A stretch of 64,000 nucleotides of DNA from Gordonia sp. PDNC005 (lineage in GTDB: Bacteria > Actinomycetota > Actinomycetes > Mycobacteriales > Mycobacteriaceae): NCBI RefSeq assembly GCF_016919385.1, contig NZ_CP070351.1:124001-188000 (forward strand), read 5' to 3'. The notes under the pieces were generated by a model. The model was given only the letters and a program-made list of their open reading frames with translations. It did no database searches and had not been told where the DNA came from. The position numbers and the translations under genes were made by a program. Shown in pieces: positions 13,160-33,491 of the stretch; within the stretch, counting starts at the first letter, position 1, and every line of letters begins with the position of its first letter.

Positions 13160-14631
13160 TCCGCGGCCGCCACGGCTGTGTCACGTGCGATGCGCGGCTT
13201 GATGCCCCAGTGGTAGACGGCGTAGCAGACCGGCACGCAGGCGAGACCGAGGACGAGGGACAGTCGCTGTGTCGCGTCGAAGGCCATCGAGACGAACACG
13301 ACTCCGTTCATGAGGATCACGGCGATCGGGGTGAAGGGGAAGAACGGGGCGGCGTACGGGAGGTCCTTCACATCACCGCCGTTCTTGACGTACTGCTTGC
13401 GGAATCGGTACTGCGACAGCGCGATCGTCATCCAGCAGAGAGCGCCGCCGACACCGCTGATCGAGATGAGGAACACGAACACGGTGTCGGCGGCGACGAA
13501 CTCGGTCATCAGGGAGAGCAGGCCGAACAGCAGGGTGAAGAGCAGGCCCCAGATCGGGATGCCGCGCTTGGTGGTGACGCCGAAGACGCGGGGTGCCGCC
13601 TTCTCCTGCGCGAGCGACCACAGGATGCGGGTGCACATGTAGAGACCGGTGTTGCCGACCGACAGGATGGCGACCAGGATGACGAAGTTCATGATGCCCG
13701 CGGCGTAGGGGATGCCGATCGCCTTGAAGACGGTCACGAACGGGCTCTCGTCCAGGCCGAGCTGCTGCCACGGGATGAGGGCGATCAGGATGAGGATGGA
13801 ACCCAGGTAGAGGAAGACGAGGCGGAACACGATCGTGCGGACTGCCTTGGGGATCGCCTTGCGGGGATTCTCCGTCTCGCCTGCGGCGACGCCCATCACC
13901 TCGGAGCCCATGAACGTGTAGACCACGGTCATCATCGCGGCGAACACTGCGCCGAAGCCTACGGGGAAGAATCCGCCGTGCGAGGTGAAGTTCGCGAGGC
14001 CGGGGGCCTCCATTCCGTCCATCTTGACGACGCCGGTGATGGCGAGGATGCCGAGGACGATGAAGAAGCCGACGGCGAGGACCTTGATGGCCGCGAGTGC
14101 GTACTCGGTCTCGGCGAACGATCGGGCGGTGAAGCAGTTGACCAGGAACAGGACGGCGATGAAGAAGGCGGACCACACCCACGTCGGGGTGTCGGGGAAC
14201 CAGAACTTCATGGTGATGCCTGCGGCGGTGAACTCGAGGCCGATGAACGACGCCCAGCTGATCCAATACACCCAGCCGATGGCGAAGCCGGTGCCCGGGC
14301 CGATGTACTTGGTGGCGTGCGCCTGGAAGGAGCCGCTGACGGGCATGACCGCCGACATCTCGCCGAGGCACACCATCGTCAAGTACAGCAGGACGCCACC
14401 GACGATGTAGGCGAGGATCGTCCCGCCGGGGCCTGCGGAGCTGATCACTTCGCCGGTGCCGAGGAAGAGGCCGGTTCCGATGACGCCGGCGAGGGTGATC
14501 ATGAACAGGTGGCGGCTTTTCATGACGCGCTTGAGCGCGGGGCCTTCGGGAGTGTAGAAAGGCTCGTTCACGTCGCCGCTCGGGGAGGTGGTGGCCGGTT
14601 CGTCGGAACCGGCCGTGGGGGCTATGGACAC
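13156..14631 (-). CDS. Amino acid permease (APC superfamily, AAT family)
   Basis: About 491 residues with 12 hydrophobic helices. The first helix has the family signature MITLAGVIGTGLFLGTGE, and LPVSGSF-like text (VMPVSGSFQAHATKYIGPGTGFA) marks helix 3. The family imports amino acids with protons. The frame is open to 14697, but the GTG at 14631 has AGGAG 8 nt upstream and gives a normal N-terminal tail, so it is preferred. It is the first gene of the permease-dehydrogenase operon and lies divergent from the TetR gene. Confidence 0.87.
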   Translation of the reverse strand: MSIAPTAGSDEPATTSPSGDVNEPFYTPEGPALKRVMKSRHLFMITLAGVIGTGLFLGTGEVISSAGPGGTILAYIVGGVLLYLTMVCLGEMSAVMPVSGSFQAHATKYIGPGTGFAIGWVYWISWASFIGLEFTAAGITMKFWFPDTPTWVWSAFFIAVLFLVNCFTARSFAETEYALAAIKVLAVGFFIVLGILAITGVVKMDGMEAPGLANFTSHGGFFPVGFGAVFAAMMTVVYTFMGSEVMGVAAGETENPRKAIPKAVRTIVFRLVFLYLGSILILIALIPWQQLGLDESPFVTVFKAIGIPYAAGIMNFVILVAILSVGNTGLYMCTRILWSLAQEKAAPRVFGVTTKRGIPIWGLLFTLLFGLLSLMTEFVAADTVFVFLISISGVGGALCWMTIALSQYRFRKQYVKNGGDVKDLPYAAPFFPFTPIAVILMNGVVFVSMAFDATQRLSLVLGLACVPVCYAVYHWGIKPRIARDTAVAAAE

Positions 14632-14699
14632 GGGGATGTCTCCTGGATTGTGTGCGGCCGCGGCACGCATTCCCGTGCGTCCCGGCGATCCCGCCATCT

Positions 14700-14721
14700 G
14701 CTGACTATGTACTCAGTCAGC
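14700..14721. promoter_or_regulatory. Module-1 TetR operator, copy 1
   Basis: The core TGACTATGTACTCAGTCA (14702-14719) is a near-perfect palindrome, extended by GC/GC to 22 bp. It lies between the divergent permease (14631) and TetR (14815) genes. A near-identical core recurs at 15458. Confidence 0.7.
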
Positions 14722-14801
14722 ACATAGAGAATGCGATGCCGGTCACATGATTGTCAAGGCTCGCCAGCCGTCACATTTGGTGACGGCGCATATCGGGCCC
14801 G

Positions 14802-14807
14802 TAGCAT
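14802..14807 (+). promoter_or_regulatory. -10 element TAGCAT, leaderless TetR start
   Basis: TAGCAT is followed by 7 nt and the GTG at 14815. This spacing decides the start among GTG/ATG codons at 14806, 14815 and 14824. Confidence 0.5.
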
Positions 14808-14814
14808 GGGCCCT

Positions 14815-15408
14815 GTGGCCCGAATGACGAAGGATTCCGCCGATCGGCGTGAGGGGATTCTCAAGGCGACCCTCGACATCATCAAGGAGGCCGGCATCGA
14901 CCGTGTTCGCGGCGCGGATGTCGCTAAGCGCGTCGGGGTGAGCGTCGGCCTCGTGTTTTACCACTTCGAGAATCTCGAGACGCTGATCGTCGCCGCATTG
15001 CAGTATGCGGCGAGTCGGGACATCGAGCACCGTGACGCCGCGCTCGCGGCGTCGTCAGCGGACGTCACGGAGCGGTTGGACGCGATGCTGCGCGAATACG
15101 GCCCCTCCGGCTCGGAGTTCGGCTGGCGACTGTGGGTGCAGGCATGGTCGGCGAGCTTGCGCGATCCGACTCTGCGTGCCGTCGTTCACGATCTCGATGC
15201 GGGCTGGCGTGATGTCCTCATCGAGATCATCGACGACGGTGTGGCGCAGGGGGTGTTCACCTGTCCGGACCCGGCGGGGGCGACGTGGCGCCTCACCGCG
15301 ATGCTCGACGGTCTGGCCGTCCAGCACGTGGTCTTCGACGACGTGGTCACGGTCGCGCAGATTCGAGAGTGGACGCAGCTGGCGTTGACTCGCGAACTGG
15401 GCATCTGA
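14815..15408 (+). CDS. TetR family transcriptional regulator (module 1)
   Basis: A 197-residue TetR protein. The DNA-binding part reads DRVRGADVAKRVGVSVGLVFYHFENLETL (quoted in part: recognition helix GVSVGLVFYHF) near residues 29-56. The C-terminal ligand domain has the BetI-like TetR_C pattern (WRLWVQAWSASLRDPTLRAVV). It lies between the permease/dehydrogenase operon and the amino acid dehydrogenase/decarboxylase operon, and the same 18-bp palindrome precedes both, so it probably represses both sides and is released by an amino acid breakdown intermediate. Confidence 0.85.
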   Translation: MARMTKDSADRREGILKATLDIIKEAGIDRVRGADVAKRVGVSVGLVFYHFENLETLIVAALQYAASRDIEHRDAALAASSADVTERLDAMLREYGPSGSEFGWRLWVQAWSASLRDPTLRAVVHDLDAGWRDVLIEIIDDGVAQGVFTCPDPAGATWRLTAMLDGLAVQHVVFDDVVTVAQIREWTQLALTRELGI

Positions 15409-15457: not shown

Positions 15458-15475
15458 TGACTAAGTACTCAGTCA
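15458..15475. promoter_or_regulatory. Module-1 TetR operator, copy 2
   Basis: TGACTAAGTACTCAGTCA, one base different from the core at 14702. It lies 62 bp upstream of the amino acid dehydrogenase ATG. Confidence 0.7.
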
Positions 15476-15536: not shown

Positions 15537-16760
15537 ATGTCCCTGACACTTCCCAACGCCATCGACGCATCGTTCGGCGTACGCGACGACAATGCCTTCT
15601 TCGAGATCGTCTGGCACGACACCGAGAGCGACGCCACCGGCTACGTCGTCATCGACCAGTTGGTTCGTGGAGTCTCGTCCGGAGGACTGCGCATGCGTGC
15701 GGGCTGCACCCTCGACGAAGTCCGCGGCCTCGCCCGCGGGATGACCCTCAAAGAGGGCGTCCACTACGAGCCGGGCGCACGCTACGTTCCGCTCGGCGGC
15801 GCCAAGGGCGGAATCGACTTCGATCCGTACAGCCCCGAGGCCGACGGTGTCCTGCGCCGTTTCCTGCAGGCCACCGCTCCGATCATCGACACCCGCTGGA
15901 CGATGGGCGAGGATTTCGGAGTCCAGCAGACCACCATCGATCGACTCCTCCCCGAGGTGGGACTCCGCAGTTCCATCCAGGCCGCAGAGCGGGTCGTCGA
16001 CGATCCCGAAGCCGCCCGCGCCCGGATGGCCACGGCGTTCAACAGCGTCGTCGACGGTGTGAGCCTCGACGAGTTGGTCGGCGGCTACGGCGTGGCCAAG
16101 GCCGCCCTCGCGGCGATGGCCCGCCGCGACATGGCACCGGCCGACACCACCGCGGTGATTCAAGGCTTCGGCTCGATGGGCGGCGCGACGGCGCGCTACC
16201 TCGCCGAAGTAGGAGTGCGCGTCGTCGGCATCGTCGATGTCGAGGGCGTGGTCTACAACGCAGCCGGTCTGGACGTCGAAGAGCTGCTTCTCACGCGCAG
16301 CGCCAAGGGCAACGTCGACCGCACCAAACTCCGCGACGGCGACAGCTGCCTGGACTCGTCGGAGTGGCTCTCGATCGAGACCGACGTCCTCGTGCCGGCC
16401 GCCATCTCGTACTGCATCAACGAAGGCAACCAGGACCAGGTCCGCGCTCGTCTCGTGGTGGAAGCGGCCAACATGCCGGTCACGCCGGAAGCCGAAGCGC
16501 TGCTCAGCGCACGCGGCATCGAGGTCTCGCCCGACTTCGTCGCCAACTCGGCGACGAACGCCTGGTGGTGGTGGGTCTTCTTCGGCGACGTCGACGGCAG
16601 CCCCGAGCAGTCGTTCGCCAAGATCAATGACCGCATCACCGCGCTGAGCGACGAGATGTTCGACATCGCCGCCGCCGAGGGCGTCTCCCTCCGCGCCGCC
16701 GCATTCGAGATGGCCTCGCGCAAGTTGGCCGCGATCTCCGACGAGTTCCCGATCTACTGA
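15537..16760 (+). CDS. Glu/Leu/Phe/Val dehydrogenase family protein
   Basis: A 407-residue NAD(P)-dependent amino acid dehydrogenase. Substrate-site lysines are visible as Lys72 (TLKEGVHYEPG) and Lys90 (GGAKGGIDFDP); the Rossmann domain shows IQGFGSMGGATARYLAEVG near residue 205. It should deaminate an amino acid to a 2-oxoacid. The ATG has GCAGGAG 8 nt upstream. One oddity: where typical members have a NAGGV-type loop after DFVAN, this protein has NSATNAWWWWVFFGD, with four consecutive tryptophans near residue 345, so it belongs to a divergent subgroup. It lies 43 nt before the thiamine-diphosphate enzyme gene, which would act on its product. Confidence 0.85.
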   Translation: MSLTLPNAIDASFGVRDDNAFFEIVWHDTESDATGYVVIDQLVRGVSSGGLRMRAGCTLDEVRGLARGMTLKEGVHYEPGARYVPLGGAKGGIDFDPYSPEADGVLRRFLQATAPIIDTRWTMGEDFGVQQTTIDRLLPEVGLRSSIQAAERVVDDPEAARARMATAFNSVVDGVSLDELVGGYGVAKAALAAMARRDMAPADTTAVIQGFGSMGGATARYLAEVGVRVVGIVDVEGVVYNAAGLDVEELLLTRSAKGNVDRTKLRDGDSCLDSSEWLSIETDVLVPAAISYCINEGNQDQVRARLVVEAANMPVTPEAEALLSARGIEVSPDFVANSATNAWWWWVFFGDVDGSPEQSFAKINDRITALSDEMFDIAAAEGVSLRAAAFEMASRKLAAISDEFPIY

Positions 16761-16803
16761 GCCGGCTTCCCCGTCTCGACTTCAACAGAGAGTTCAGATA
16801 TCC

Positions 16804-18402
16804 ATGTCAGCTAGTGTTCTCCGCTCGGGAGGCGGCGCCGTCGTCGACGCGCTGGTCGCTCACGGTGTCGACACCGTCTTCGGCATCCCCGGCACGCACA
16901 ACCTCGCGATCTATGCCGCGCTCGAGGCGTCGTCGATCAAGCACGTCACTCCCCGCCACGAGCAGGGAGCGGGCTACGCGGCCGACGGCTATGCACGACT
17001 GTCCGGCCGACCGGGCGTAGTCGTGACGACCACCGGGCCGGCGATCCTCAACGCATCGGCTGCTGCGGCACAGGCGTACTCGGACTCGGTTCCAGTCCTG
17101 TTCATCGCACCCGGCATGCCGTCGGATCATCCGAGCGGCTACAACGGCCTGCTGCACGAGGTGCGCAGCCAGATCGACGCGATGTCGGCCGTCGTCGCCC
17201 ACGCGCAGCGCGTGACCAGCGTCGCGGAGATCCCGCACGCCGTCGCGCAGTGCTTCGCCGCGATGACCACCGGGCGTCCGCGTCCGGCGTACCTGGAGAT
17301 CCCGCTCGACCTGCTCGAAGCGCAGGCAGAGGTCGTGGCGGAGGCGCCGGTCACCGTGCCGTCGATCGTCCCGGCGGAATCGGTCGTGGCCGCAGCCGCC
17401 GAGGTGGTCGCGTCCGCGCAGCGCCCGTTGATCGTGGCAGGAGGCGGCGCGAGCCGCGCCGCCTCGGAGGTGTTGGCGTTCGCCGAGAAGTTCGACGCTC
17501 CGGTCGTCACGACGGCCAACGGCAAGGCCGTTGTACGCGAGGATCATCCGTTGGCCCTGGGCGCTGGAGTGCCGCTCGAGGTGACTCTAGACCTGGTCCG
17601 CGACTGCGACGTCGTGCTCGCGGTCGGCACCGAACTCGCGCCGGCCGACTGGTGGTGGGGCCCGATGCCCGCGACCCGCCTGGTTCGCATCGACATCGAT
17701 CCGCTTGCGGTCGCGACCAACGCGATCCCCGAGGTCGCCGTGGTCGGCGACGCCGCGGCCGTCCTCGCCGACCTCACCGAGCGGCTCGCCCCGGTGACCG
17801 GCAGGGCTGACCGCGGTGCCGACCGCGCGGCCGCGTGGCGCCCCAGGCTCACCGAGGACGCACGCACCATCGGTGCGGCGTACGTCGGACTCGCCGAGTC
17901 CCTCGCGGAGGTTCTGGACGACGACGCTGTGATCGTCGCCGACCAGACGATGTCGTGCTACTACGGCTTGATGGGCAACCTCCCGCGCTACGCACCGCGG
18001 TCGTTCATGTACCCGTCCGGTCTCGGCACCCTCGGGTACTCGCTGCCCGCGGGCATCGGTGCGATGGTGTCGACGCCCGGTCGACAGGTTGTCGCGGTGA
18101 TCGGCGATGGCGGCGTGATGTTCTCGCTGCCCGAGCTCGCGACTGCGGCCCAGGCCGGCATCGCCCTGCCCGTGGTGGTCGTCGACAACGGCGGCTACGG
18201 CGAGATCCGTAACGAGATGGTGGACCGGGACGAGACGCCGATCGCGGTGGACCTCCCGACGCCGGACTTCGCCGGTGTCGCACGGGCCCTGGGCTGCCAC
18301 GGCGTCGACGCCGCGTCGTACGCGGAGGTGGGTCCCGCCGTTCGTGAGGCTTTCGCCGCCGATCGTCCGACTCTGATCTACGTGCGCGAGCCCGCTGTCT
18401 GA
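16804..18402 (+). CDS. Thiamine-diphosphate enzyme, 2-oxoacid decarboxylase/acetolactate-synthase-like
   Basis: A 532-residue three-domain thiamine diphosphate enzyme. The catalytic glutamate is Glu53 in PRHEQGAGYAADGYAR; the cofactor motif is GDGGVMFSLPELATAAQAG followed by VVVDNGGYGEIRNE. GIPGTHNLAIY at about residue 27 is the active-site loop. The family includes AruI-type 5-guanidino-2-oxopentanoate decarboxylase, oxoacid decarboxylases and acetolactate synthase. No regulatory subunit gene follows, which argues against biosynthetic acetolactate synthase. Placed after an amino acid dehydrogenase, it most likely decarboxylates a 2-oxoacid to an aldehyde. It ends in a strong terminator. Confidence 0.82.
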   Translation: MSASVLRSGGGAVVDALVAHGVDTVFGIPGTHNLAIYAALEASSIKHVTPRHEQGAGYAADGYARLSGRPGVVVTTTGPAILNASAAAAQAYSDSVPVLFIAPGMPSDHPSGYNGLLHEVRSQIDAMSAVVAHAQRVTSVAEIPHAVAQCFAAMTTGRPRPAYLEIPLDLLEAQAEVVAEAPVTVPSIVPAESVVAAAAEVVASAQRPLIVAGGGASRAASEVLAFAEKFDAPVVTTANGKAVVREDHPLALGAGVPLEVTLDLVRDCDVVLAVGTELAPADWWWGPMPATRLVRIDIDPLAVATNAIPEVAVVGDAAAVLADLTERLAPVTGRADRGADRAAAWRPRLTEDARTIGAAYVGLAESLAEVLDDDAVIVADQTMSCYYGLMGNLPRYAPRSFMYPSGLGTLGYSLPAGIGAMVSTPGRQVVAVIGDGGVMFSLPELATAAQAGIALPVVVVDNGGYGEIRNEMVDRDETPIAVDLPTPDFAGVARALGCHGVDAASYAEVGPAVREAFAADRPTLIYVREPAV

Positions 18403-18472: not shown

Positions 18473-19951
18473 TCACGCGTCGGCTGCGACGGTCCGGGCC
18501 GTGGGCGAGTACAGCCCGAGTCCGGCTGGGATCACAACTGCGCGTGTCAGAACGTAGTGCGCGAGTCCCGCGACGATGAACGACGGTACAGAGGCCGTCG
18601 TGTATTTGAAGATGCTCGCCGGCTCGTACGTGATCGGGTTGAGGAGCAGGCAGTAGACCAGAACACCGAGGCCGACCGATGCGAAGGCGCATACATTCAC
18701 GCCACGCCAGTAGCCGTATCCCGAGTCCGCGGTGTCGGCATACAGTTGCCTGACGTCCAACCGGCCCCGCCGCAGGAGGAAGTAGTCGACGATCTGGACG
18801 CCGCACAACGGCGCGAGGAAGAGGGCGCCCCACGACAAGAACTGGCTGTAATTGTCGTAGACGGCCTGGGGGAAGAACACGAGAATCACCGCCGGGCCGA
18901 GGATCACGGTGATGAGCGCGGGCCACGAGACGCCGCGGAGCAGGCGTCCGCCGCCGCCGCGCAGTGCGACCATCGAGGCGTATCCCTGTGACAGGATCGC
19001 GGTGATGTTGGCCAAGGCCACCACCAGGAGTGCGAGCACGCCGAATGTGCTGCCGATCAGCGGGATCATCCACTCGGTGGGGTCCTCCAGCTTGAGCGTG
19101 AGGGCCGCGAAGACGCCGACGACGGCCGCCACCACGGATGCGCCGAAGATGCCGAGGAAGTTGGGCCAGAACGCGGATCGGGACGTTCGTGTGAGGCGGG
19201 CGAGATTGCCCATGTTGGGCCACCAGGCGAACCCGCCCGCGATGTTGATCTCGATGGCGAGCATGAAGCTGACGTGCGAGTCCTCCGCTGGGTCGAGCGG
19301 CGCGAGCGAAGCGATGTGATCCCAGGTGTCGCGGCGCAGAACCATGATGAGGATTGCGATGATGATCAAGATCAGCAGCGGGGCGATCACCTGGCAGACC
19401 CGTTCGACCGAGACCGGGCCGCGCGACAGGATGAGCCACGAGACGACGACTGCGCCCACCGCGATGATCGACAGCGTCGTGGTCGAGTCGGACAAGTGCC
19501 AGCCGAACATGTGACTGAGTGCGTTGACCATGCCGTGCCCGAGCATGATGGCGAGCACGGCAGACCAAGCGGCTGCGAGCAGAGTGGACATGAAGACCAT
19601 GACCACCCGGGCGCCGACACTTCCGAACACGCTGCGCAGACCGATGAACTGCTCGACTCCATACTTGGCCGCGGGCAGGCACGGCGCCAACGCGACGAAG
19701 AAGACGGCGATTCCGTAGCCGATGGCGATCGTCGCGATGGCCTGCTTGGCGCCGACGTAGTACGCGACGGCGGCGCCTTGAAGGAACGCCCAGGTGGCGA
19801 CGGCGAGCCCGATGTTGACCACGGAGTAGTCCCAGAAGCCCCAGATTCGTTCGCGGCGTGTGAGGGGGAGCTCGTTGAGTGTCGCGTCGTCGACAGCGGC
19901 GGTGGGTTCGTGCAGGACGGTCTCGTCGGTGACGGCTTTGCGGGTTCTCAT
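18473..19951 (-). CDS. NCS1 family nucleobase:cation-symporter-like transporter
   Basis: A 492-residue, 12-helix permease. LTRRERIWGFWDYSVVNIGLAVATW near residues 30-55 is the usual NCS1 entry with the helix-1 WDY pattern. Known members carry cytosine, purines, allantoin, thiamine or hydantoins with protons or sodium. Here it is coupled to a 54-residue membrane protein gene (stop and start share one base) and the pair faces an amine oxidase gene across two TetR-type palindromes. That context suggests an amine or amine-containing heterocycle as substrate; this is inference. The ATG at 19951 is fixed by the coupling. Confidence 0.85.
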   Translation of the reverse strand: MRTRKAVTDETVLHEPTAAVDDATLNELPLTRRERIWGFWDYSVVNIGLAVATWAFLQGAAVAYYVGAKQAIATIAIGYGIAVFFVALAPCLPAAKYGVEQFIGLRSVFGSVGARVVMVFMSTLLAAAWSAVLAIMLGHGMVNALSHMFGWHLSDSTTTLSIIAVGAVVVSWLILSRGPVSVERVCQVIAPLLILIIIAILIMVLRRDTWDHIASLAPLDPAEDSHVSFMLAIEINIAGGFAWWPNMGNLARLTRTSRSAFWPNFLGIFGASVVAAVVGVFAALTLKLEDPTEWMIPLIGSTFGVLALLVVALANITAILSQGYASMVALRGGGGRLLRGVSWPALITVILGPAVILVFFPQAVYDNYSQFLSWGALFLAPLCGVQIVDYFLLRRGRLDVRQLYADTADSGYGYWRGVNVCAFASVGLGVLVYCLLLNPITYEPASIFKYTTASVPSFIVAGLAHYVLTRAVVIPAGLGLYSPTARTVAADA

Positions 19952-20115
19952 CACAGGCACCACCAGAGCAACAGCAGAGTGCCGACGATCAAACCGACGG
20001 CGCACAGGACGATGTCGCGGAGTGGGAGATCGGGCAGGATCATCCCGTTGTCGTCGGGGGATTCGAGGAGCTGAAGGCGGCGCTCCAGCTCGGTGTCGAA
20101 TGCATCGGTTGTCAT
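19951..20115 (-). CDS. 54-residue single-span membrane protein coupled to the NCS1 transporter
   Basis: A short gene easily missed. It encodes MTTDAFDTELERRLQLLE, a DDNG turn, PDLPLRD, and then one hydrophobic helix (about residues 34-54) ending LLLLWWCL. The stop TGA shares its last base with the ATG of the NCS1 gene (TGATG), the tightest form of translational coupling, so the two products are probably made in equal amounts. The amphipathic first half followed by a single helix resembles small accessory subunits of transporters. I do not recognise a family. It is preceded by a palindrome at 20128. Confidence 0.72.
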   Translation of the reverse strand: MTTDAFDTELERRLQLLESPDDNGMILPDLPLRDIVLCAVGLIVGTLLLLWWCL

Positions 20116-20127
20116 GGGGAGCCTTTC

Positions 20128-20145
20128 TGACTGACGAACCAGTTA
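20128..20145. promoter_or_regulatory. Module-2 operator, copy A
   Basis: TGACTGACGAACCAGTTA, an imperfect palindrome 13 bp upstream of the small membrane protein ATG. It fits the pattern TGACTG-N6-CAGTYA shared with 20207, 22348 (complement strand) and 27159. Confidence 0.6.
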
Positions 20146-20206
20146 TGTAACTGTGTGGGACGCCTCACAGTCTTGTCAAGACTCAGTCCAGATCACGCCG
20201 AGTCAT

Positions 20207-20224
20207 TGACTGATCCGTCAGTTA
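20207..20224. promoter_or_regulatory. Module-2 operator, copy B, overlapping the amine oxidase promoter
   Basis: TGACTGATCCGTCAGTTA, extended by AT/AT on both sides (20205-20226). TTGACT at 20206-20211 is a possible -35, with CACGAT at 20229-20234 17 nt later and 7 nt before the ATG at 20242. A bound repressor would block this promoter. Confidence 0.68.
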
Positions 20225-20241
20225 ATGCCACGATGGGGCCC

Positions 20242-21630
20242 ATGTCACACTCAGAGACGAATTCGGCACGCGACGTCGACCATGTGGGCGTCGCGATCAT
20301 CGGGGCAGGCTACGCGGGACTCTCGGCGGCGCTGGCACTTGTCGACGAGGGCGTGGACGCGGTGGTCCTCGAAGGCGCCGACCGCGTCGGTGGCCGGACG
20401 CTGTCGGAGGTTCGTCCCACCGGAGTTGTCGTCGATCACGGCGGGCAGTGGGTCGGGCCGACGCAGACCCGACTGCTCGCGCTCGCGGAACGCTTCGGTG
20501 TCTCCATCTTCCCGACGTTCTGGGCCGGCGATCACCTGGAGATCTGGGCCGACGGCGGCGTCAACCGGTATCGGGGCGCGGGGCCGGACGAAGGCGAAGG
20601 TCTCCACGAGTACGAAGAGCACATCAAGGTGCTCGACGCGCTGGCGGCGACCATCGACCTGCAGAATCCGCCCGCGTCGCCGAATGCCGCGGCGCTCGAT
20701 GAGGAGACGGTCGCGTCGTATCTGCTGCGCGAGGTGCCCTGCGAGGGCGCGCGCCGCCGGTTCGCGCTGGCTGTCGAAGGCGTGTGGGCGTGCGAGACCG
20801 CACACGTCTCGATGCTGCACTTCCTCTTCTACATCGCCGCGGCCGGAACCTTCGACGAGCTCATGGAGACCGACGGCTGTGCGCAGGACTCACGGTTCGT
20901 CGGCGGCGCGCAGGCGCCGGCGAAGGCTGTCGCCACGCACCTGGGCGACCGCGTTCGGCTCGGGTGGTGCGCCGACCGTGTCACGGTGGTCGACGACGGG
21001 ATCCTCGTCGAGACGTCCGCGGGCACCGTCCACGCGTCGCATGTGATCGTCACCCTTCCGCCACAGGCGGCGGGTGCAGTCCGGTTCGATCCGCCGTTGC
21101 CACCTGCCAAGGCGAGATTCGTCGACCGGAGCGTGATGGGCGATGTTGCGAAAGTGCACGTCACCTACCCGAAACCGTTCTGGCGCGCCGAGGGACTCAG
21201 CGGTCAGGCGACCGTGTACGACGAGCGGGAGACAGGCGTCGTGTTCGACAACTCGCCCGACGACGCGAGCTCGGGAGTCCTGGTCGCATTCGTGTACGGC
21301 CGGAGGGTCGATCCGTGGGCGCAGCTGGACGCCGATGCGCGCCGCGCCGCGATCCTGACGACGCTGACCGATCTGTTCGGAGACCGTGCAGGCGAACCGG
21401 TCGACTACGTCGAGAAGATCTGGTCGGTCGACCCGTGGATCCGTGGCGCCTACGCCGCCAATCCAACACCCGGCGCGTGGTCGTCCTACGGCGAGCAAGG
21501 GTGGCGTCGCCCGACAGGGCGCATCCACTGGGCGGGGTCGGAGACGTCGAGCGTGTGGAACGGCTACATCGACGGAGCGATCGCGTCAGGACAGCGAGCT
21601 GCGCAGGAAATCCTGGACTGTCTCGGGTAG
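20242..21630 (+). CDS. Flavin monoamine oxidase family protein
   Basis: A 462-residue FAD amine oxidase. The N-terminal GAGYAGLSAALALVDEG and EGADRVGGRT bind FAD; HGGQWVGPTQTR follows, and the C-terminus has WAGSETSSVWNGYIDGAIASG. In eukaryotic MAO a cysteine in a CYT motif binds FAD covalently; the matching position here reads GAYA, so FAD is probably non-covalent, as in bacterial putrescine oxidase. It would convert a primary amine to an aldehyde, hydrogen peroxide and ammonia. Divergent from the NCS1 pair, with predicted operators between them. The ATG at 20242 gives the shortest sensible tail; an in-frame ATG exists 9 nt upstream. Confidence 0.88.
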   Translation: MSHSETNSARDVDHVGVAIIGAGYAGLSAALALVDEGVDAVVLEGADRVGGRTLSEVRPTGVVVDHGGQWVGPTQTRLLALAERFGVSIFPTFWAGDHLEIWADGGVNRYRGAGPDEGEGLHEYEEHIKVLDALAATIDLQNPPASPNAAALDEETVASYLLREVPCEGARRRFALAVEGVWACETAHVSMLHFLFYIAAAGTFDELMETDGCAQDSRFVGGAQAPAKAVATHLGDRVRLGWCADRVTVVDDGILVETSAGTVHASHVIVTLPPQAAGAVRFDPPLPPAKARFVDRSVMGDVAKVHVTYPKPFWRAEGLSGQATVYDERETGVVFDNSPDDASSGVLVAFVYGRRVDPWAQLDADARRAAILTTLTDLFGDRAGEPVDYVEKIWSVDPWIRGAYAANPTPGAWSSYGEQGWRRPTGRIHWAGSETSSVWNGYIDGAIASGQRAAQEILDCLG

Positions 21631-21634
21631 CGCG

Positions 21635-21705
21635 GACACGATTCGGCTCACTTCGTTCGCTCAACGAGCGGGGTGCGGAGCAGGCGAGTCGAAAGGTCGT
21701 TCGCC
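21635..21705. repeat. Fragment of the dispersed CGAGTCGAAAGG repeat
   Basis: The spacer between two convergent genes contains TTCGTTCGCTCAACGAGCG and GCGAGTCGAAAGG, the same text as in the 6775-6889 repeat. No terminator other than this is visible here. Confidence 0.5.
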
Positions 21706-21709
21706 GAGA

Positions 21710-22303
21710 TCAGGCGGTGATCGCGTCGAGGTAGGAGTCGATGCGCGCGATCATCCGGTCGAGAGGCATCTCGGGAGCGTGCATCAGGTTCTGAATGCTC
21801 ATCCCGTCGATCATCGATACCAGCACATCGGCGAACACGTCGGCGTCGCCCTCGACGATCTGACCGCGATCCTGACCATGGGCGACGAGGTCCCGGACCA
21901 GTTCCCGCCACTGGCCGTAGAGGCGCGCGTTGATGTCTTGCAACGTCTCGTCACGCATGCCCTCAGCCCACAGCTCGGCCCAGACCCGCCACGCCCGGAT
22001 CGACGCCTCGGTCACGGGCAGATTGCTGTGCGCGAGGGCGCGGAGAGTTGCGAGCGAGTCCGTCTGGTCGCCGTCGAGCATCGCGCGTCGTCCCTCGATG
22101 GAACGCTCGTAATTCAACTCGAACGCGGCGTTGACCACGTCCCGCTTCGTGTCGAAGTAGTAGTGGACGGTGCCCGACGAGACTCCGGCGCGCTTGGCGA
22201 CGTCCGACAGGCGCAGTGACTGCATGCCGCGGTCGGCGATCACCTCGCACGCCGCCGACAGGATCTGCTCGCGGCGTTCCGCTTCGACACTCGGTCGTGG
22301 CAC
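21710..22303 (-). CDS. TetR family transcriptional regulator (module 2)
   Basis: A 197-residue TetR protein. The helix-turn-helix is LRLSDVAKRAGVSSGTVHYYF at about residues 31-51; the C-terminal domain is of the BetI/TetR_C type (AWRVWAELWAEGMRDETLQDI quoted in part). The GTG at 22303 is chosen because AGGAG lies 6 nt upstream; the frame continues upstream without a better start. It follows the acyl-CoA dehydrogenase operon in the same direction but behind a terminator and its own palindrome (22348), so it is probably autoregulated. It is the best candidate regulator for the four module-2 palindromes. Confidence 0.85.
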   Translation of the reverse strand: MPRPSVEAERREQILSAACEVIADRGMQSLRLSDVAKRAGVSSGTVHYYFDTKRDVVNAAFELNYERSIEGRRAMLDGDQTDSLATLRALAHSNLPVTEASIRAWRVWAELWAEGMRDETLQDINARLYGQWRELVRDLVAHGQDRGQIVEGDADVFADVLVSMIDGMSIQNLMHAPEMPLDRMIARIDSYLDAITA

Positions 22304-22347
22304 TGCTGACTCCTTTGTAGTACTGACGCCCCTCGACACTACGCAGA

Positions 22348-22365
22348 TGACCGGCCCGTCAGTCA
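22348..22365. promoter_or_regulatory. Module-2 operator, copy C, upstream of the TetR gene
   Basis: TGACCGGCCCGTCAGTCA; its complement TGACTGACGGGCCGGTCA starts with the same nine bases as copy A (TGACTGACG). It lies 45 bp before the TetR GTG. Confidence 0.6.
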
Positions 22366-22370
22366 AGAAA

Positions 22371-22404
22371 GAACCGCGGTGTCGCCGAGGCGACACCGCG
22401 GTTC
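22371..22404 (-). terminator. Terminator of the acyl-CoA dehydrogenase operon
   Basis: A 16-bp perfect inverted repeat, GAACCGCGGTGTCGCC at 22371-22386 and its complement at 22389-22404, 13 bp after the acyl-CoA dehydrogenase stop. Confidence 0.72.
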
Positions 22405-22417
22405 GCGGTCGATCATG

Positions 22418-23578
22418 TCAGTCCAGGTTGCGCGAGATCACGAGCTTCATGATGTCCGAGGTGCCCTCTTCGATCTCCTCGAGCTTCACGTCGCGCATCC
22501 ACTGCTCGACGGGGAACTCGCGGGAGTAGCCCCAGCCGCCGAGCGTCTGGACGGCCGCGTGGGTGACGAACATGGCGGTCTCGGAAGCCTGCAGCTTGCA
22601 CATGGCGGCGAGGCCGGTGGCGCGCTGGCCGCTGTCGATGACGCGGGCGGCGTGGTGGACCAGCAGTCGGGCCGACTCGATGCGGGTGGCCATCTCGGCG
22701 AGACGGAACGCGACGGCCTGGTGCTCGATGATCGGGACGCCGAACTGCTTGCGCTCGCGGGCGTAGTTCAGGGCGTACTCGTACGCTGCGCGTGCGGCGC
22801 CGACAGCGGCGGCGCCGAGCACCACGCGCGAGATGTCGAACGTGCCCATGAGGCCGTAGAAGCCCTGGCCCTCGTCGCCGAGGCGATCCTCGTCCGGCAC
22901 GAACATGTCGTCGAAGAACACCTCGCGGCAGACGATGGCGCGCTGGCCCATCTTCTTCATCGGCTCACCGAACGAGACGCCGGGGGTGTCCTTCTTGAAC
23001 ATGAAGGCGGTGACGCCGGCCGACCGCTTGGTCTTGTCGGTCTTGGCGAAGACGACGTACTGCTCGGCGGCGCCCGCATTGGAGATCCACGCCTTCTGGC
23101 CGTTGATCTTGTATCCGCCGTCGACCTTGGTCGCAGTGGTGATGATCGACGCCGCATCCGAACCCGAACCGGGCTCGGTGGTGGCAAGCGAGGTCATGAT
23201 CGCGTCGGGGCCGGTGGTCGGCGGCAGCCACTTGCGCTTCTGCTCCTCGGTGCCGAGGACCATGAGCGGGTCGGAGAAGAAGCCGTTCGAGCAGACGAGG
23301 TTGCCGATGCCGGGATCGCCCCAGCACAGTTCCTCCTGCACGAGGCACTGGGTGAAGACGTCGGTCATGCCGCCGCCGCCGTACTCGGTGGGGATCATGA
23401 AGTCGGCGATGCCGACCTGTGCGGCCTTGCGGAAGATGTCGACCGGAGTGACGGTGTCGGCCTCGTCGACCTCACGGCCGCGCGGGCGGATCTCCTTCTC
23501 GGCGAAATCGTGGCAGAGCTCGATGATCTGCTTCTGCTCGTCGGTCAACGGGAATGCGGGGATGTTCACGGTGCTCAT
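22418..23578 (-). CDS. Acyl-CoA dehydrogenase
   Basis: A 386-residue FAD enzyme that makes the alpha,beta double bond in an acyl-CoA. It has the three-domain family pattern: LTDEQKQIIELCHDFAEKEI at the N-terminus, ATTEPGSGSDAASI and YKINGQKAWISNAG in the middle, and LGGWGYSREFPVEQWMRD then EEGTSDIMKLVISRNL at the end. The expected catalytic base is Glu371 in EGTSD. It is the last gene of the operon with aldehyde dehydrogenase and acyl-CoA synthetase, so its substrate is probably the acyl-CoA they make. Chain length cannot be read from the sequence. The ATG at 23578 is preceded by AAAGG. Confidence 0.9.
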   Translation of the reverse strand: MSTVNIPAFPLTDEQKQIIELCHDFAEKEIRPRGREVDEADTVTPVDIFRKAAQVGIADFMIPTEYGGGGMTDVFTQCLVQEELCWGDPGIGNLVCSNGFFSDPLMVLGTEEQKRKWLPPTTGPDAIMTSLATTEPGSGSDAASIITTATKVDGGYKINGQKAWISNAGAAEQYVVFAKTDKTKRSAGVTAFMFKKDTPGVSFGEPMKKMGQRAIVCREVFFDDMFVPDEDRLGDEGQGFYGLMGTFDISRVVLGAAAVGAARAAYEYALNYARERKQFGVPIIEHQAVAFRLAEMATRIESARLLVHHAARVIDSGQRATGLAAMCKLQASETAMFVTHAAVQTLGGWGYSREFPVEQWMRDVKLEEIEEGTSDIMKLVISRNLD

Positions 23579-23612
23579 GGGATGCCTTTCTGGAGGTGCT
23601 CGAGGGAGGGGG

Positions 23613-25049
23613 CTACAACTGGATGCTGGTGATCTCGGTGAACTCTTCGAGTCCGACGGGACCGAGTTCTCGGCCGAGTCCGGAGGCCTTCCAGCCGCCG
23701 AACGGTGCACGCGGATTGAACGGCGCGCCGTTCACGTCCACCTGACCGGTGTCGATACGCGACGCCACAGCGATCGCGCGGTCGGTGTCACCGGACCAGA
23801 CGGCTCCGGCTAGGCCGTACTCGCTGTCGTTGGCGAGAAGCACGGCGTGGTCGTCGCCGTCGTGCGGAAGCACAACGATGACTGGACCGAAGATCTCGTC
23901 GCGTACCGCCGGGTCGTCGGCCTGGAGGTCGGCGAGGACGGTGGGTGCGACGAAGTGTCCTCCCGGGAACTCCGGCAGGGGATCGGGTCCGCCGCACACG
24001 AGGCGGGCGCCTCGGGCGAGAGCGCCGTCGATCGCCGAGACGATCGATGTGCGCTGGGCGGCGGAGATGACGGGCCCGAGGTCGGTGGACTCGTCGCCGG
24101 GGTCGCCGACGCGCATGGCGGCGACGGCGTCGGCGGCGATCGTGAGGGCGTCCTCGTAGCGGCCGCGGGGGACCAACAGTCGGGACCAGGCGCTGCATGT
24201 CTGACCGGAGTTCAGCAGGCCCGCGGCGACACTCGTGCGGACCGCCTCGTCCAGGTCGGCGTCGTCGAGGACCACGCTGGCCGACTTGCCGCCGAGTTCG
24301 AGGCACGCGCGCTTGATGTTCTGGGCGGCCGCCACGGCGATGGTCTTGCCGACGCCGGTGGAGCCGGTGAACGACACGACGTCGACGCCGGGGTGCTCGG
24401 CGAGTGCCGAACCCACCACACGTCCAGCACCGGGAACCAGGGAGAACACGCCTGCGGGAACACCGGCTGCCACGGCCGCATCGGCGAAGAGGTACGTCGA
24501 CAGGGGAGTCAACTCCGCGGGCTTCACCACGATCGGGCAGCCCGCGGCGAGGGCTGCGCCTGCCTTCGCGACCAGCTGATAGAACGGGTAGTTCCACGGC
24601 GTGATGGCTGCGACCACACCGGCGGCTCGGCGCAGGACACGCGAGTTGCCGATCGTCGTCTGCCACTCGAAGGTACGGGCCAGGCCTGCGAAGTCGGCCA
24701 TGATCTCGATGCCGAGGTCGATGTGGGCCTCACGTGCCACGGTGAGCGGCGCGCCGACCTCGGCGACTGTCGCGGCGACGAGATCGTCGCGGCGGTTGCG
24801 CAGCTCGGAGACCAGGGCGTCGAGGACGTTGGCGCGTGCCTCCGGCGATGCGGTGCTCCACGCCGGGAGGGCGGCGCGGGCGGCGGACACGGCGTCGTCG
24901 ACGTCGATCGCTGTGCACGACGCCGAGGTGCCTACGGTGGCGCCGGTCGCCGGGGCGTGGACGTCGACGGTCTCGGCCACGGTGCGCCATGTGCCCTTGA
25001 TGAGCGCAGCGTCGCGCTGCCACAGGGCGACTGTCGTGGTGGCTGTCAT
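23613..25049 (-). CDS. Aldehyde dehydrogenase family protein
   Basis: A 478-residue NAD(P)-dependent aldehyde dehydrogenase. Catalytic Cys285 is in SGQTCSAW and the general base Glu251 in LELGGKSA; AITPWNYPF, FTGSTGVGK and EIFGPV are the usual family motifs. It would oxidise the aldehyde produced by the amine oxidase and by the 2-oxoacid decarboxylase-like enzyme. GGAAGG lies 9 nt before the ATG. Spacing to the acyl-CoA dehydrogenase gene is 34 nt and to the synthetase gene 28 nt, so it is the middle gene of one operon. Confidence 0.92.
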   Translation of the reverse strand: MTATTTVALWQRDAALIKGTWRTVAETVDVHAPATGATVGTSASCTAIDVDDAVSAARAALPAWSTASPEARANVLDALVSELRNRRDDLVAATVAEVGAPLTVAREAHIDLGIEIMADFAGLARTFEWQTTIGNSRVLRRAAGVVAAITPWNYPFYQLVAKAGAALAAGCPIVVKPAELTPLSTYLFADAAVAAGVPAGVFSLVPGAGRVVGSALAEHPGVDVVSFTGSTGVGKTIAVAAAQNIKRACLELGGKSASVVLDDADLDEAVRTSVAAGLLNSGQTCSAWSRLLVPRGRYEDALTIAADAVAAMRVGDPGDESTDLGPVISAAQRTSIVSAIDGALARGARLVCGGPDPLPEFPGGHFVAPTVLADLQADDPAVRDEIFGPVIVVLPHDGDDHAVLLANDSEYGLAGAVWSGDTDRAIAVASRIDTGQVDVNGAPFNPRAPFGGWKASGLGRELGPVGLEEFTEITSIQL

Positions 25050-25077
25050 GTGCTTGTCCTTCCTGGTGGAGTAGTGG

Positions 25078-27120
25078 TCAGTTGTCGGTGACGATGAGTG
25101 CGTCGAGAGCGAGGACGCCGTCGGGGGCCACGCGAACCGGGTTCAGTTCGATCTCGGTGATCCGTGAATCACTTGCGGCCAGCCGGGACACTGCGGCGAC
25201 GACGTCGGCGAGGGCCGCGACGTCGGTGGCCGGCTTGCCGCGCCAGCCTGCGAGCAGCTTGTGGGCCTTGAGCCGCGAGATCATGTCGGCAGCGGTCGCG
25301 GCGTCGACGGGGGCCGATTCCATGACGACGTCGGCGTACACCTCGGTCGCCACGCCGCCTGTCCCGACTGTCACGGTGACGCCGAGGTCGGGGTGACGCT
25401 GGCAACCGATCAGGACCTCGACTCCGTCCGGGCGGGTGTCCATCTGCTCCAGGACGTAGTCGCCGTCGCCGAGTCGGGCGTGCATTTCGGTGAACACCGC
25501 CGCCACGTCGTCGCTGTTCAGGCCGACTTTCACTCCGCCGACCTCACTCTTGTGCTCTAGCCATGCGGCTTTGAGGACGAGCGGAGCGGTGAGGTCGGCC
25601 GCTGCGGCGACCGCTTCGTCCACGCTGGTGACGACGGTGCCCGCCGGGAAGGACACCCCTTCGTCGAGCAGCAGTGCGCGGGCGTTCCAGTACCCCGCCG
25701 TGGGAGCGACGCCGTCGGTCGTCACGACGGCGACGTCGCGGGCGGACTCGCGGTACACCGCGGTGCCCGACAGTGCGCGCAGCAAAGGTTCGACGGTCCC
25801 GAAGGTGGGGACGCCCGCGGCCCACAGCGCATCGGCGACGGGCCCGGCGGCTTCCATGGAGTGCACGTACAGAGGCTTGCCCGCGGTGCGCGCAGCGTCT
25901 GCGAGTCGCTGCGCGAGAGCGAGCTCGTCGTCCATCAGGCCGGGGTTGTCGGCGCCGTAACAACCGAAGTAGCCGGTGAGGACCGCGGAGTCGACGTCGG
26001 AATCGGCCAGTGCCAGAGCGACGGCGCTCACGTAGTTGGCGAGATCGGCTTCACCGGCTCCTGCCAGGTCGACAGGGTTCGACGTGGCCGCGCCGGCTGG
26101 AAGCAGGTCGGTGAGCGCCGCGTCGGCCGCTTCACCGAGTGGAGGGACGGACAGTCCGTGGGCGGCTGCCTGGTCGGCCGCGATGCCGCACTGGCCGCCG
26201 CTGTCGCCGACGATCACCGTGCGGCGGCCGGCGGGTGCGGCGCCCGCGATCACGCTGCGCGCCACGTCGATCACCTCGCCGGGCGACTGTGCTCGCAGGA
26301 CCCCCGCCGCGCGGCACGCGGCGTCGACGATGTCGACGGGCGCGGTGAGCGAGCCGGTGTGCGAACGTGCGAGTCGGCTGCCTGCGGCACTGGCGCCGAC
26401 CGTCAACAGGATCACCGGCTTGCCTGCCGCGCGGAGCGCGGCGATCGCGTCGAAGAGCTCGACGCCGCCGGTGAACGATTCGAGGTAGACGACCACGACG
26501 CGGGTGGCCTCGTGGTCGACGAGGTCGGCGAGGAGTTCGGCCGCCGTCACATCGGTCTGGTTGCCGATGGACACGAAACGTGAAACGCCGATGCCGTTGT
26601 GCTGGCCGAGGCGGGCGAGTTCACTGCCGAGCTGACCCGACTGGGAGACGATCGCCATCGGGCCGGAGGTGAAGTTGCCCCAGCTGAGGTCGAGTTCGCC
26701 TGCGGCGTCGTAGATTCCGAGGCTGTTGGCGCCGACGAGGCGGGCGCCCGCGGCGCGGATGCGCTCGGCGATCTGGACTTCGTCCTCGATGCCGGCGGTG
26801 ATGCCGAGGAATCCCCGGGTGCCCATCGCGAGAGCCTCGTCGACAACGGCGCCGACCATCGGTCCGGGGACGCACAGTGCGACGAGTTCGGGCGCCTCGT
26901 CGAGGGCGCTGAGAGAAGTGACGCAGGCGTGACCGAGGACGTCGCCGCCGCGCGCGTTCACGAGGTGGACGTCGCGCCGATGTGCTCCGGCGATTGCTCC
27001 GGCCGCCAGCCAGTAGCCCCACTTGGTGCGGTTCGACGACGCGCCGACCACGGCGACCGAGCGAGGAGTGCTGAACACGGACAGCCCGTTGTGGAGGGAG
27101 TTCAGGACCGGGCTGTTCAT
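25078..27120 (-). CDS. Acyl-CoA synthetase, NDP-forming (acetate-CoA ligase-like)
   Basis: A 680-residue fused enzyme: CoA-binding Rossmann domain (SVAVVGASSNRTKWGYW, about residues 16-32), succinyl-CoA-synthetase-like domains with the phosphohistidine motif RSHTGSLTAPVD, and a C-terminal ATP-grasp part (VLKAAWLEHKSEVGGV). The family makes acyl-CoA from acid, CoA and ATP with ADP and phosphate as products. It is the first gene of the operon; a palindromic operator lies at 27159. It would activate the acid released by the aldehyde dehydrogenase. GAGGTG precedes the ATG. Confidence 0.88.
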   Translation of the reverse strand: MNSPVLNSLHNGLSVFSTPRSVAVVGASSNRTKWGYWLAAGAIAGAHRRDVHLVNARGGDVLGHACVTSLSALDEAPELVALCVPGPMVGAVVDEALAMGTRGFLGITAGIEDEVQIAERIRAAGARLVGANSLGIYDAAGELDLSWGNFTSGPMAIVSQSGQLGSELARLGQHNGIGVSRFVSIGNQTDVTAAELLADLVDHEATRVVVVYLESFTGGVELFDAIAALRAAGKPVILLTVGASAAGSRLARSHTGSLTAPVDIVDAACRAAGVLRAQSPGEVIDVARSVIAGAAPAGRRTVIVGDSGGQCGIAADQAAAHGLSVPPLGEAADAALTDLLPAGAATSNPVDLAGAGEADLANYVSAVALALADSDVDSAVLTGYFGCYGADNPGLMDDELALAQRLADAARTAGKPLYVHSMEAAGPVADALWAAGVPTFGTVEPLLRALSGTAVYRESARDVAVVTTDGVAPTAGYWNARALLLDEGVSFPAGTVVTSVDEAVAAAADLTAPLVLKAAWLEHKSEVGGVKVGLNSDDVAAVFTEMHARLGDGDYVLEQMDTRPDGVEVLIGCQRHPDLGVTVTVGTGGVATEVYADVVMESAPVDAATAADMISRLKAHKLLAGWRGKPATDVAALADVVAAVSRLAASDSRITEIELNPVRVAPDGVLALDALIVTDN

Positions 27121-27158
27121 GGGTGGTGCACCTCACTGATTCGGGGAGTGTCAATAAC

Positions 27159-27176
27159 TGACTGGCGGCTCAGTCA
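27159..27176. promoter_or_regulatory. Module-2 operator, copy D, upstream of the acyl-CoA synthetase operon
   Basis: TGACTGGCGGCTCAGTCA, a near-perfect palindrome with the same TGACTG and CAGTCA arms as the other copies, 39 bp before the synthetase ATG. Confidence 0.7.
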
Positions 27177-32641: not shown

Positions 32642-32708
32642 CGAGTGCGGGATCCTCCCTGCCACGCAGCGCGCGGATCGAATCGGGTGCTGACATCGAC
32701 CGTCGGGG

Positions 32709-32714
32709 TACCGT
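32709..32714 (+). promoter_or_regulatory. -10 element TACCGT, leaderless lipoprotein gene
   Basis: TACCGT is followed by 6 nt and the GTG at 32721. Confidence 0.45.
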
Positions 32715-32720
32715 GACCGC

Positions 32721-33491
32721 GTGCGATCACGACTTTCGGGTACGTCCATCATCACTGTTTCGACTGCTGTTGTCGCGGCGATGCTCCTGACCTCGTGTGG
32801 ATCGTCCGAACCAGCCGACCCCGGCTCGGACCTCCCGTCACGACTCCTTCCGGGTGACGCGGTACCGCAGGGCTTCACGGTGATCCCGCAGTCGGTGGGC
32901 GACTTGATCGCGGCCAATCGCAGCACCCTGGAGTCGGCGTCGACCGTCGGGTTCGTTCCGGTCGGGTGCAAGCCGACGGCCGATGCGAAGTTCAATCCGC
33001 AGCTCACCGAGGACAACACCGTCCTGCTCGTGGCGCAGTCGGAGACCGGCACGTTCAGTGAACTGCTGACCACAGTGCGACGTGACGTCGACGCCGACCG
33101 CCGCGACACCAGCGGACCGTGCGGTTCGGTGACCGCGACCCCGTCGACCGGTTCCCTCGCGGGAGTGCCGATCGTCAACACGTCTGTGGAGCTGCCCGCG
33201 CTGCACGGTGACGACATCGCCGCGTCGTACCTCGTCCGGACCGATTCGGTGAAACGCCCCGCGGGCGCCAACCCGCGATCGCGTACCGCGCTGCTCGCCA
33301 ACGTGCTCGTGAAGCGGCCCGGAGGTCAGGTCGTGACCATTCAGATGGGCGTCTCGGGCGCCGAGGTCGAGGTGACGCCGGAGATGGCCGCGGTCGTCGT
33401 GCCGGGAGCTCCGCTGACCCAGCCGCCGCTCGACGAGATCGCGTTCGCCGACCTCGTGAAGACCGCCGTGGAGCGCGCGGCCGCAGAGTAA
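32721..33491 (+). CDS. Putative secreted lipoprotein of unknown function
   Basis: A 256-residue protein with a lipoprotein signal: basic MRSRLSG, hydrophobic ITVSTAVVAAMLL and the lipobox LLTSCGSS near residue 26. The mature part (VPQGFTVIPQSVGDLIAAN, then VGCKPTADAKFN) resembles actinobacterial lipoproteins without a known activity. It is divergent from ramB by 79 bp and starts leaderless at GTG. Downstream is the long regulatory spacer of aceA. I do not recognise a family with a defined job. Confidence 0.72.
   Translation: MRSRLSGTSIITVSTAVVAAMLLTSCGSSEPADPGSDLPSRLLPGDAVPQGFTVIPQSVGDLIAANRSTLESASTVGFVPVGCKPTADAKFNPQLTEDNTVLLVAQSETGTFSELLTTVRRDVDADRRDTSGPCGSVTATPSTGSLAGVPIVNTSVELPALHGDDIAASYLVRTDSVKRPAGANPRSRTALLANVLVKRPGGQVVTIQMGVSGAEVEVTPEMAAVVVPGAPLTQPPLDEIAFADLVKTAVERAAAE

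Follow-up and report, generated by a model that had tools for sequence, protein, structure and literature searches.

The question raised by a stretch of DNA from Gordonia sp. PDNC005 (positions 124,001-188,000 of contig NZ_CP070351.1, 64,000 nucleotides of a single-contig genome of 4.26 Mb, hereafter the window) is whether a short palindrome, TGACTG-N6-CAGTYA, ties the genes around it into one catabolic regulon, which regulator would read it, and which amine the encoded enzymes would consume. An earlier note on this DNA, made from its letters alone, had proposed a four-operator regulon in which a TetR-family protein (hereafter TetR1) controls an NCS1-family carrier, a flavin amine oxidase, its own gene, and an operon for a coenzyme A (CoA) ligase, an aldehyde dehydrogenase and an acyl-CoA dehydrogenase. 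All four palindromes lie at the positions given there, that of TetR1 with one mismatch; each stands directly ahead of a unit, and profile matches bear out the gene families named. The regulon stands and the number four does not: judged by sequence, the TetR1 operator set is a conserved regulon larger than four operators, with at least five once an APC-family permease gene elsewhere in the genome (record L001) is counted. Also missing from the proposal were a second TetR (TetR2) with two sister operators and an amino-acid arm (15537-18402), which other genomes join to the CoA operon.

The case for one regulon can be made firstly within the window. The palindromes end 12 bp before the start codon of a 54-amino-acid open reading frame that precedes the NCS1 carrier (operator 1), 17 bp before the amine oxidase ATG at 20242 (operator 2), 44 bp before the TetR1 GTG at 22303 (operator 3) and 38 bp before the CoA ligase ATG at 27120 (operator 4). 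With up to one mismatch allowed, the pattern gives 12 matches at six places in the window, against a mean of 0.26 and a maximum of 2 in 100 shuffled sequences, none of which reached 12; with up to two mismatches the signal is less clear, at 16 matches against a shuffle mean of 5.16, and one shuffle in 100 reaches 16. Secondly, the sites are kept among relatives. A single scan with the amine oxidase returned 30 loci, the closest of those found, at 85% identity of the amine oxidase, belonging to Gordonia malaquae and G. spumicola. In 27 of the 30, a site with at least 10 of the 12 arm bases lies within the 260 bp ahead of the oxidase, compared with 38 of 2158 background windows and 0 of 30 for a backwards control. 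The three loci without such a site are the most distant relatives (32-43% identity). As the loci are related to each other, these counts are not independent; the 27 sites, taken with three flanking bases on each side, amount to 20 distinct sequences, and TTGACTG is nearly invariant among them. Sites of the same quality occur within 150 bp ahead of TetR1 in 12 of 21 relatives (gap 45-56 bp), ahead of the CoA operon in six of seven and ahead of the homologue of an amino-acid dehydrogenase in five of six, the last two denominators being the cases in which a start codon could be placed rather than all loci; the background for these three counts is 63 of 2894 windows. In Mycobacterium aquaticum (L071) a perfect palindrome stands 18 bp before the start of an amino-acid dehydrogenase gene that belongs to the same profile family and lies on a different contig from the oxidase.

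The genome-wide scan proposed in the earlier note yielded a fifth operator, the exact site TGACTGACGGCTCAGTTA at genome position 3908857, outside the window at a distance of 3.76 Mb along the contig (about 0.50 Mb should the contig be circular), with 11 bp between its end and the start codon of the APC-family permease. G. malaquae holds a 98% copy of this permease with the same site 11 bp ahead. In Rhodococcus wratislaviensis (G023, the record of locus L018) a 66% homologue adjoins the CoA ligase, with sites between the two genes, and in two further Rhodococcus genomes an exact site precedes a 65-66% homologue by 224-234 bp. Homologues (E <= 1e-60) are present in four of the 12 genomes searched, G. 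spumicola being among the eight without. Since the operator has stayed with the permease gene whether this lies within the cluster, as in Rhodococcus, or away from it, as in Gordonia, comparison argues strongly that the palindrome is regulatory.

Table 1. Operators and genes of the proposed regulon and its amino-acid arm. Positions are those of the window unless a record is named; L015 and L016 are the two closest relatives.
Feature	Position	Strand	Remarks
D-amino-acid dehydrogenase-like flavoprotein	11918..13159	-	PF01266 196.9 bits
Amino-acid permease	13156..14697	-	PF00324 419.4 bits; divergent from TetR2
Sister operator	14702..14719	.	One mismatch; between amino-acid permease and TetR2; identical in L015, reverse complement in L016
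TetR2, second BetI-type regulator	14731..15408	+	PF13977 83.7 bits; true start may lie further in
Sister operator	15458..15475	.	One mismatch; ahead of amino-acid dehydrogenase
Glu/Leu/Phe/Val-type amino-acid dehydrogenase	15537..16760	+	PF00208, PF02812; nearest solved structures are glutamate dehydrogenases
Thiamine diphosphate (ThDP)-dependent enzyme, proposed 2-oxo-acid decarboxylase	16804..18402	+	Best NCBIfam model NF005712
NCS1-family carrier, proposed amine importer	18473..19951	-	PF02133 (Transp_cyt_pur) 109.3 bits, cut-off 23.5
54-amino-acid microprotein	19951..20115	-	One hydrophobic span (by eye); stop overlaps NCS1 start (TGATG)
Operator 1	20128..20145	.	TGACTGACGAACCAGTTA; ahead of microprotein and NCS1 carrier; identical in L015 and L016
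Operator 2	20207..20224	.	TGACTGATCCGTCAGTTA; ahead of amine oxidase
Flavin amine oxidase	20242..21630	+	PF01593 246.4 bits
TetR1, BetI-type, proposed regulon repressor	21710..22303	-	PF00440 56.0 bits (cut-off 24), PF13977 90.0 bits (cut-off 27)
Operator 3	22348..22365	.	TGACCGGCCCGTCAGTCA, one mismatch; ahead of TetR1; autoregulation proposed
Acyl-CoA dehydrogenase	22418..23578	-	Three domains matched, with the Glu of the EGTS motif
Aldehyde dehydrogenase	23613..25049	-	PF00171 501.9 bits
Acyl-CoA ligase forming nucleoside diphosphate (NDP)	25078..27120	-	PF13380, PF13607, PF13549 (CoA-binding, Succ_CoA_lig, ATP-grasp_5), all matched
Operator 4	27159..27176	.	TGACTGGCGGCTCAGTCA, perfect palindrome; ahead of CoA-ligase operon
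APC-family permease	L001:8389-9846		Behind fifth operator at 3908857

TetR1 is strongly predicted to be the regulator, as the earlier note had supposed, because it is conserved together with the system (20 of the 30 oxidase loci include a homologue), because relatives have the site ahead of its own gene and because its structural neighbours are TetRs that bind amines. It combines TetR_N and TetR_C_6 domains, both above cut-off, and its model (mean predicted local distance difference test score 92) has as nearest solved structures 4nel, 4ich, 4jnn and 4kwa, a TetR of Saccharomonospora viridis solved with trimethylamine, choline and benzamidine, to which TetR1 is only 28-29% identical. The two domains and the link with (quaternary-)amine metabolism are those of the choline repressor BetI, whose operator we take to be similar in kind, whereas no choline-oxidation gene was recognised among the regulon genes of the window and TetR1 falls below both BetI cut-offs (83.1 vs 118 for NF001978, 82.3 vs 201.3 for TIGR03384). 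TetR2, whose gene is flanked by the sister operators, is of BetI type as well, and the outer TGACT/AGTCA arms are common to both sets of sites; the sites might thus belong to TetR2, or TetR1 and TetR2 might share all of them as one cross-regulated set, and two Pimelobacter loci with a TetR2-like gene and no TetR1 homologue do keep the oxidase-upstream site. We nevertheless consider either arrangement quite unlikely, as the stretches fetched for all eight Mycobacterium/Mycolicibacterium loci, and for three of the four from Amycolatopsis, contain TetR1 and the sites but lack a TetR2 homologue, and as the two TetR2 sites have a common GTACT core that is missing from the TetR1 sites. Should TetR1 be the reader of the palindrome, it would represent a clade of TetRs whose operator is legible from sequence across several actinobacterial families and whose targets could be predicted genome by genome. 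Because a 15-pair hairpin with a T-rich tail (22371-22404, not above shuffles) separates the acyl-CoA dehydrogenase from operator 3, TetR1 may be a transcription unit separate from that operon.

From the sites, their conservation, the linkage of the genes and the protein families, we infer binding, inducer, the direction and order of the steps, convergence and substrate, and the resulting picture of a catabolic regulon under a BetI-type TetR, with a sister-regulated amino-acid arm, is one that we hold to be probable. TetR1 would sit on the operators ahead of four window units (microprotein and NCS1 carrier; amine oxidase; TetR1 itself; CoA ligase, aldehyde dehydrogenase and acyl-CoA dehydrogenase) and ahead of the APC permease elsewhere, and would be released from them upon binding a small organic amine. 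The amine would be imported through the NCS1 carrier, the APC permease or both, and oxidised to an aldehyde and then an acid; the ligase would turn the acid into an acyl-CoA, with ATP converted to ADP, and the acyl-CoA would be dehydrogenated to an enoyl-CoA that enters beta-oxidation. The TetR2 arm, comprising the amino-acid permease, the D-amino-acid dehydrogenase, the amino-acid dehydrogenase and a ThDP-dependent decarboxylase, would convert the corresponding amino acid into the aldehyde that is also formed from the amine. If true, this predicts a degradation route, controlled by a pair of repressors, that treats an amine and the amino acid from which it derives as a single substrate.

The series of conversions from amine through aldehyde, acid and acyl-CoA to enoyl-CoA, like the uptake step before it, had already been put forward in the earlier note; it finds support in the enzyme families and is, on that footing, plausible. 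The oxidase belongs to the family of putrescine oxidase 2yg3 and monoamine oxidase 8p84, its nearest solved relatives being the latter, cyclohexylamine oxidase and putrescine oxidase, and it has Ala where the row of 2yg7 has Cys, presumably the flavin-linking position. The aldehyde dehydrogenase misses the cut-off of the aminobutyraldehyde dehydrogenase model NF010000 (409.3 vs 615). The ligase has the domains of NDP-forming CoA ligases, its solved relatives by sequence being 3-hydroxypropionate- and 4-hydroxybutyrate-CoA ligases and the dimethylsulfoniopropionate lyase 7cm9 (which we take to be DddX), and it scores far below the cut-offs of the four NCBIfam models listed for NDP-forming ligases. 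In the amino-acid arm, the D-amino-acid dehydrogenase-like flavoprotein lies below the cut-off of NF001933 (174.9 vs 383). The amine and amino-acid branches probably converge on a single aldehyde, because some relatives join the amino-acid arm to the same CoA operon. G077 has a block of adjacent genes for the amino-acid dehydrogenase, ThDP enzyme, CoA ligase, an SDR-family protein, the aldehyde dehydrogenase, the acyl-CoA dehydrogenase and a TetR1 homologue; TetR2, permease and D-amino-acid dehydrogenase lie next to this block, and the stretches fetched contain no match to the oxidase or NCS1. Pimelobacter groups the oxidase with the NCS1 carrier, a TetR2-like gene, the aldehyde dehydrogenase, both enzymes of the amino-acid arm (amino-acid dehydrogenase and ThDP enzyme) and the ligase. 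A homologue of the ThDP enzyme occurs with the oxidase in 8 of 30 loci and one of the amino-acid dehydrogenase in 5 of 30.

Several observations weigh against this reading. Firstly, the genome-wide scan, for all that it yielded the fifth operator, found no enrichment in the strain's own genome at up to one mismatch, the pattern itself giving 24 rows and the backwards control 32. Because the pattern is no commoner than that control, the case for operators rests on position and conservation: six of 13 distinct genome places fall within 12.5 kb, a clustering for which the density of the remaining seven gives a Poisson P of about 1e-13. The equal frequency of the control, together with the resemblance of TTGACT to a -35 hexamer, could suit repeats that are chance occurrences or a general promoter element rather than operators; this is extremely improbable in view of the shuffles, the oxidase-upstream sites set against their control, and the sites ahead of the displaced APC permease and of the M. 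aquaticum dehydrogenase on its separate contig. Secondly, the counterpart of operator 3 reaches at best only 8 of 12 arm bases in L015 and L016, which are among the nine misses ahead of TetR1. Thirdly, linkage is incomplete: the steps of the acyl-CoA and aldehyde dehydrogenases are not always linked, as Pimelobacter has no acyl-CoA dehydrogenase match and seven of eight Mycobacterium/Mycolicibacterium loci (L022, L026, L028-L031 and L043, L041 being the locus that has one) show no aldehyde-dehydrogenase homologue in the fetched stretch; and both amino-acid-arm genes accompany the oxidase in only 5 of 30 loci (L015, L016, L025, L038 and L042). Lastly, relatives have a recurrent SDR-family protein that most resembles 2,4-dienoyl-CoA reductase (scores of 293.2 and 305.7 bits, cut-off 318). 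A crude gene caller picks it up in at least 11 of 31 records, and inspection by eye adds L020 and L041; the strain's own genome has no orthologue, the best matches being 36-39%, and the proposed route does not explain it.

The NCS1 family is known for nucleobases and hydantoins, and the carrier here misses the subfamily cut-off of TIGR00800 (108.5 vs 353.1) and has no sequence match among solved structures at 1e-3. A homologue occurs with the oxidase in 22 of 30 loci, and five Streptomyces loci have an APC-type carrier in its place. The microprotein before it matched no Pfam family; a strict motif search finds it in 15 of the 30 records examined, the window counted, and other scans find it in further loci. 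Similar proteins of about 55 amino acids with a single hydrophobic span directly precede more distant NCS1 carriers in L021 (upstream of 17935), L095:2799-2978 and L096:8977-9147, which suggests that the carrier has a conserved microprotein partner and, if true, points to NCS1 carriers with such a partner as amine importers. In L021 the carrier concerned is a paralogous NCS1 (47%) beside a homologue of agmatine deiminase and an aminobutyraldehyde dehydrogenase (700.9, cut-off 615).

As for the substrate, two classes of amine named in the earlier note lose ground. Putrescine oxidase has an acidic residue for the distal amine, Glu324, and its equivalent here is Val333, with no acidic residue in that column among 23 aligned sequences, which speaks against diamines of the putrescine type. 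Arylethylamines of the phenethylamine type would be unlikely by chemistry, because an arylacetyl-CoA has no beta C-H and would allow no C2-C3 dehydrogenation by the acyl-CoA dehydrogenase. Isoamylamine, listed in the earlier note as well, and other aliphatic amines are still candidates. The hydrophobic Val333, together with a monoamine oxidase as nearest solved relative, would be in keeping with an aliphatic or sulfur pair, such as isobutylamine/valine, 2-methylbutylamine/isoleucine or 3-methylthiopropylamine/methionine, as would an acyl-CoA dehydrogenase of short/medium/branched-chain kind and an amino-acid dehydrogenase with Ser (read by eye) in place of the Lys by which glutamate dehydrogenases bind the substrate side chain. 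We advance such a pair tentatively: it leaves the cations bound by the neighbours of TetR1 unexplained, branched-chain amino acids normally go through the oxo-acid dehydrogenase complex, and the acyl-CoA dehydrogenases of the system have an extra Glu that it does not account for. In medium-chain acyl-CoA dehydrogenase (MCAD) a tyrosine has a role next to the catalytic Glu; three solved relatives also have Tyr at this position, and every one of the 22 related sequences examined has Glu there (L010 and L018 being one genome).

This extra Glu and those bound cations would instead suit a cationic pair, agmatine/arginine through 4-guanidinobutanal or cadaverine/lysine through 5-aminopentanal, with the resulting guanidino or amino acid then activated with CoA. 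The best NCBIfam model for the ThDP enzyme, NF005712, describes 5-guanidino-2-oxopentanoate (2-oxoarginine) decarboxylase; the homologue from Rhodococcus passes its cut-off of 500 (523.7), and those of G077 (497.9) and the window (497.7, 2.3 bits under) come close. Glu100 of the oxidase is invariant in 23 of 23 aligned orthologues and is Tyr or Val in the solved relatives printed with them; the genes around the paralogous NCS1 carrier and microprotein of L021 fit as well; and, fermentation of 5-aminovalerate proceeding by pentadienoyl-CoA, a dienoyl-CoA reductase would suit 2,4-pentadienoyl-CoA derived from a 5-amino acid. None of these indications is decisive, and a cationic pair is likewise advanced tentatively: apart from Val333, NF005712 is a broad subfamily model that the window protein just misses, the agmatine-deiminase homologue of L021 is under its own cut-off (285.8 vs 381.8), and we know of no CoA activation of 4-guanidinobutyrate described in arginine breakdown, though no search was aimed at it. 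Rather unlikely is the fuller proposal of an actinobacterial CoA route for arginine/agmatine (or lysine/cadaverine), in which two BetI-type repressors with sister operators would govern two arms joining at one omega-substituted aldehyde, and the amine would be imported by a two-part system of NCS1 permease and obligate 54-amino-acid membrane microprotein from an amine-transporting branch of NCS1.

In whole-genome sampling, the system is patchily distributed. Counting the strain's own genome in each case, TetR1 (E <= 1e-30) was found in 3 of 151 genomes sampled from the family, carriers matching the second NCS1 of L021 (1e-90) in 4 of 296 from the class and the CoA ligase (E <= 1e-110) in 6 of 346 from the phylum; plasmid records gave 16 oxidase relatives, all below 60% identity. 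Among the titles and abstract openings listed by searches of an open-access library, none appears to describe this cluster, a scope outside which most subscription journals lie.

Palindromes of the same kind also occur away from these genes. In the genomes of 12 relatives (about 85.7 Mb) there are 27 exact places, of which 16, tallied by coordinates, lie ahead of regulon genes, four between TetR-like and SDR-like genes (by eye), one ahead of fabG1 and six elsewhere; the genome of L032 has none. The form TGACTGATGCATCAGTTA is found at position 1501 in each of L061, L073, L077 and L079 (three Rhodococcus and M. aquaticum), where it separates an SDR-like gene from another TetR-like gene, as identified by eye. 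In the strain's own genome only 3908857 was accepted as a further member, and 1672868, 306420, 741631, 2799164, 2816241 and 2858029 were not. At 1672868 (L002:5869), as in G. malaquae (L091:2617), a perfect TGACTG-N6-CAGTCA stands ahead of a pair resembling fabG1-inhA, with gene names by eye, and is probably the site of another regulator. Clusters with related CoA ligases have palindromes with at least 10 of 12 arm bases at L054:15602, L056:6432, L057:12705 and L058:2478, at the 5' end of genes for an ABC solute-binding protein, Rieske oxygenases and a TetR. A sigma-70 scan gave one promoter-like site (0.5 in shuffles) and one terminator-like hairpin (2.4 in shuffles), neither above chance alone; a promoter-like pair at 27208-27180, a match not above shuffles, lies directly upstream of operator 4. 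About 4 kb beyond the CoA operon, at 31217-33301, lies a regulator gene whose product has a ScfRs (short-chain acyl-CoA regulator) domain.

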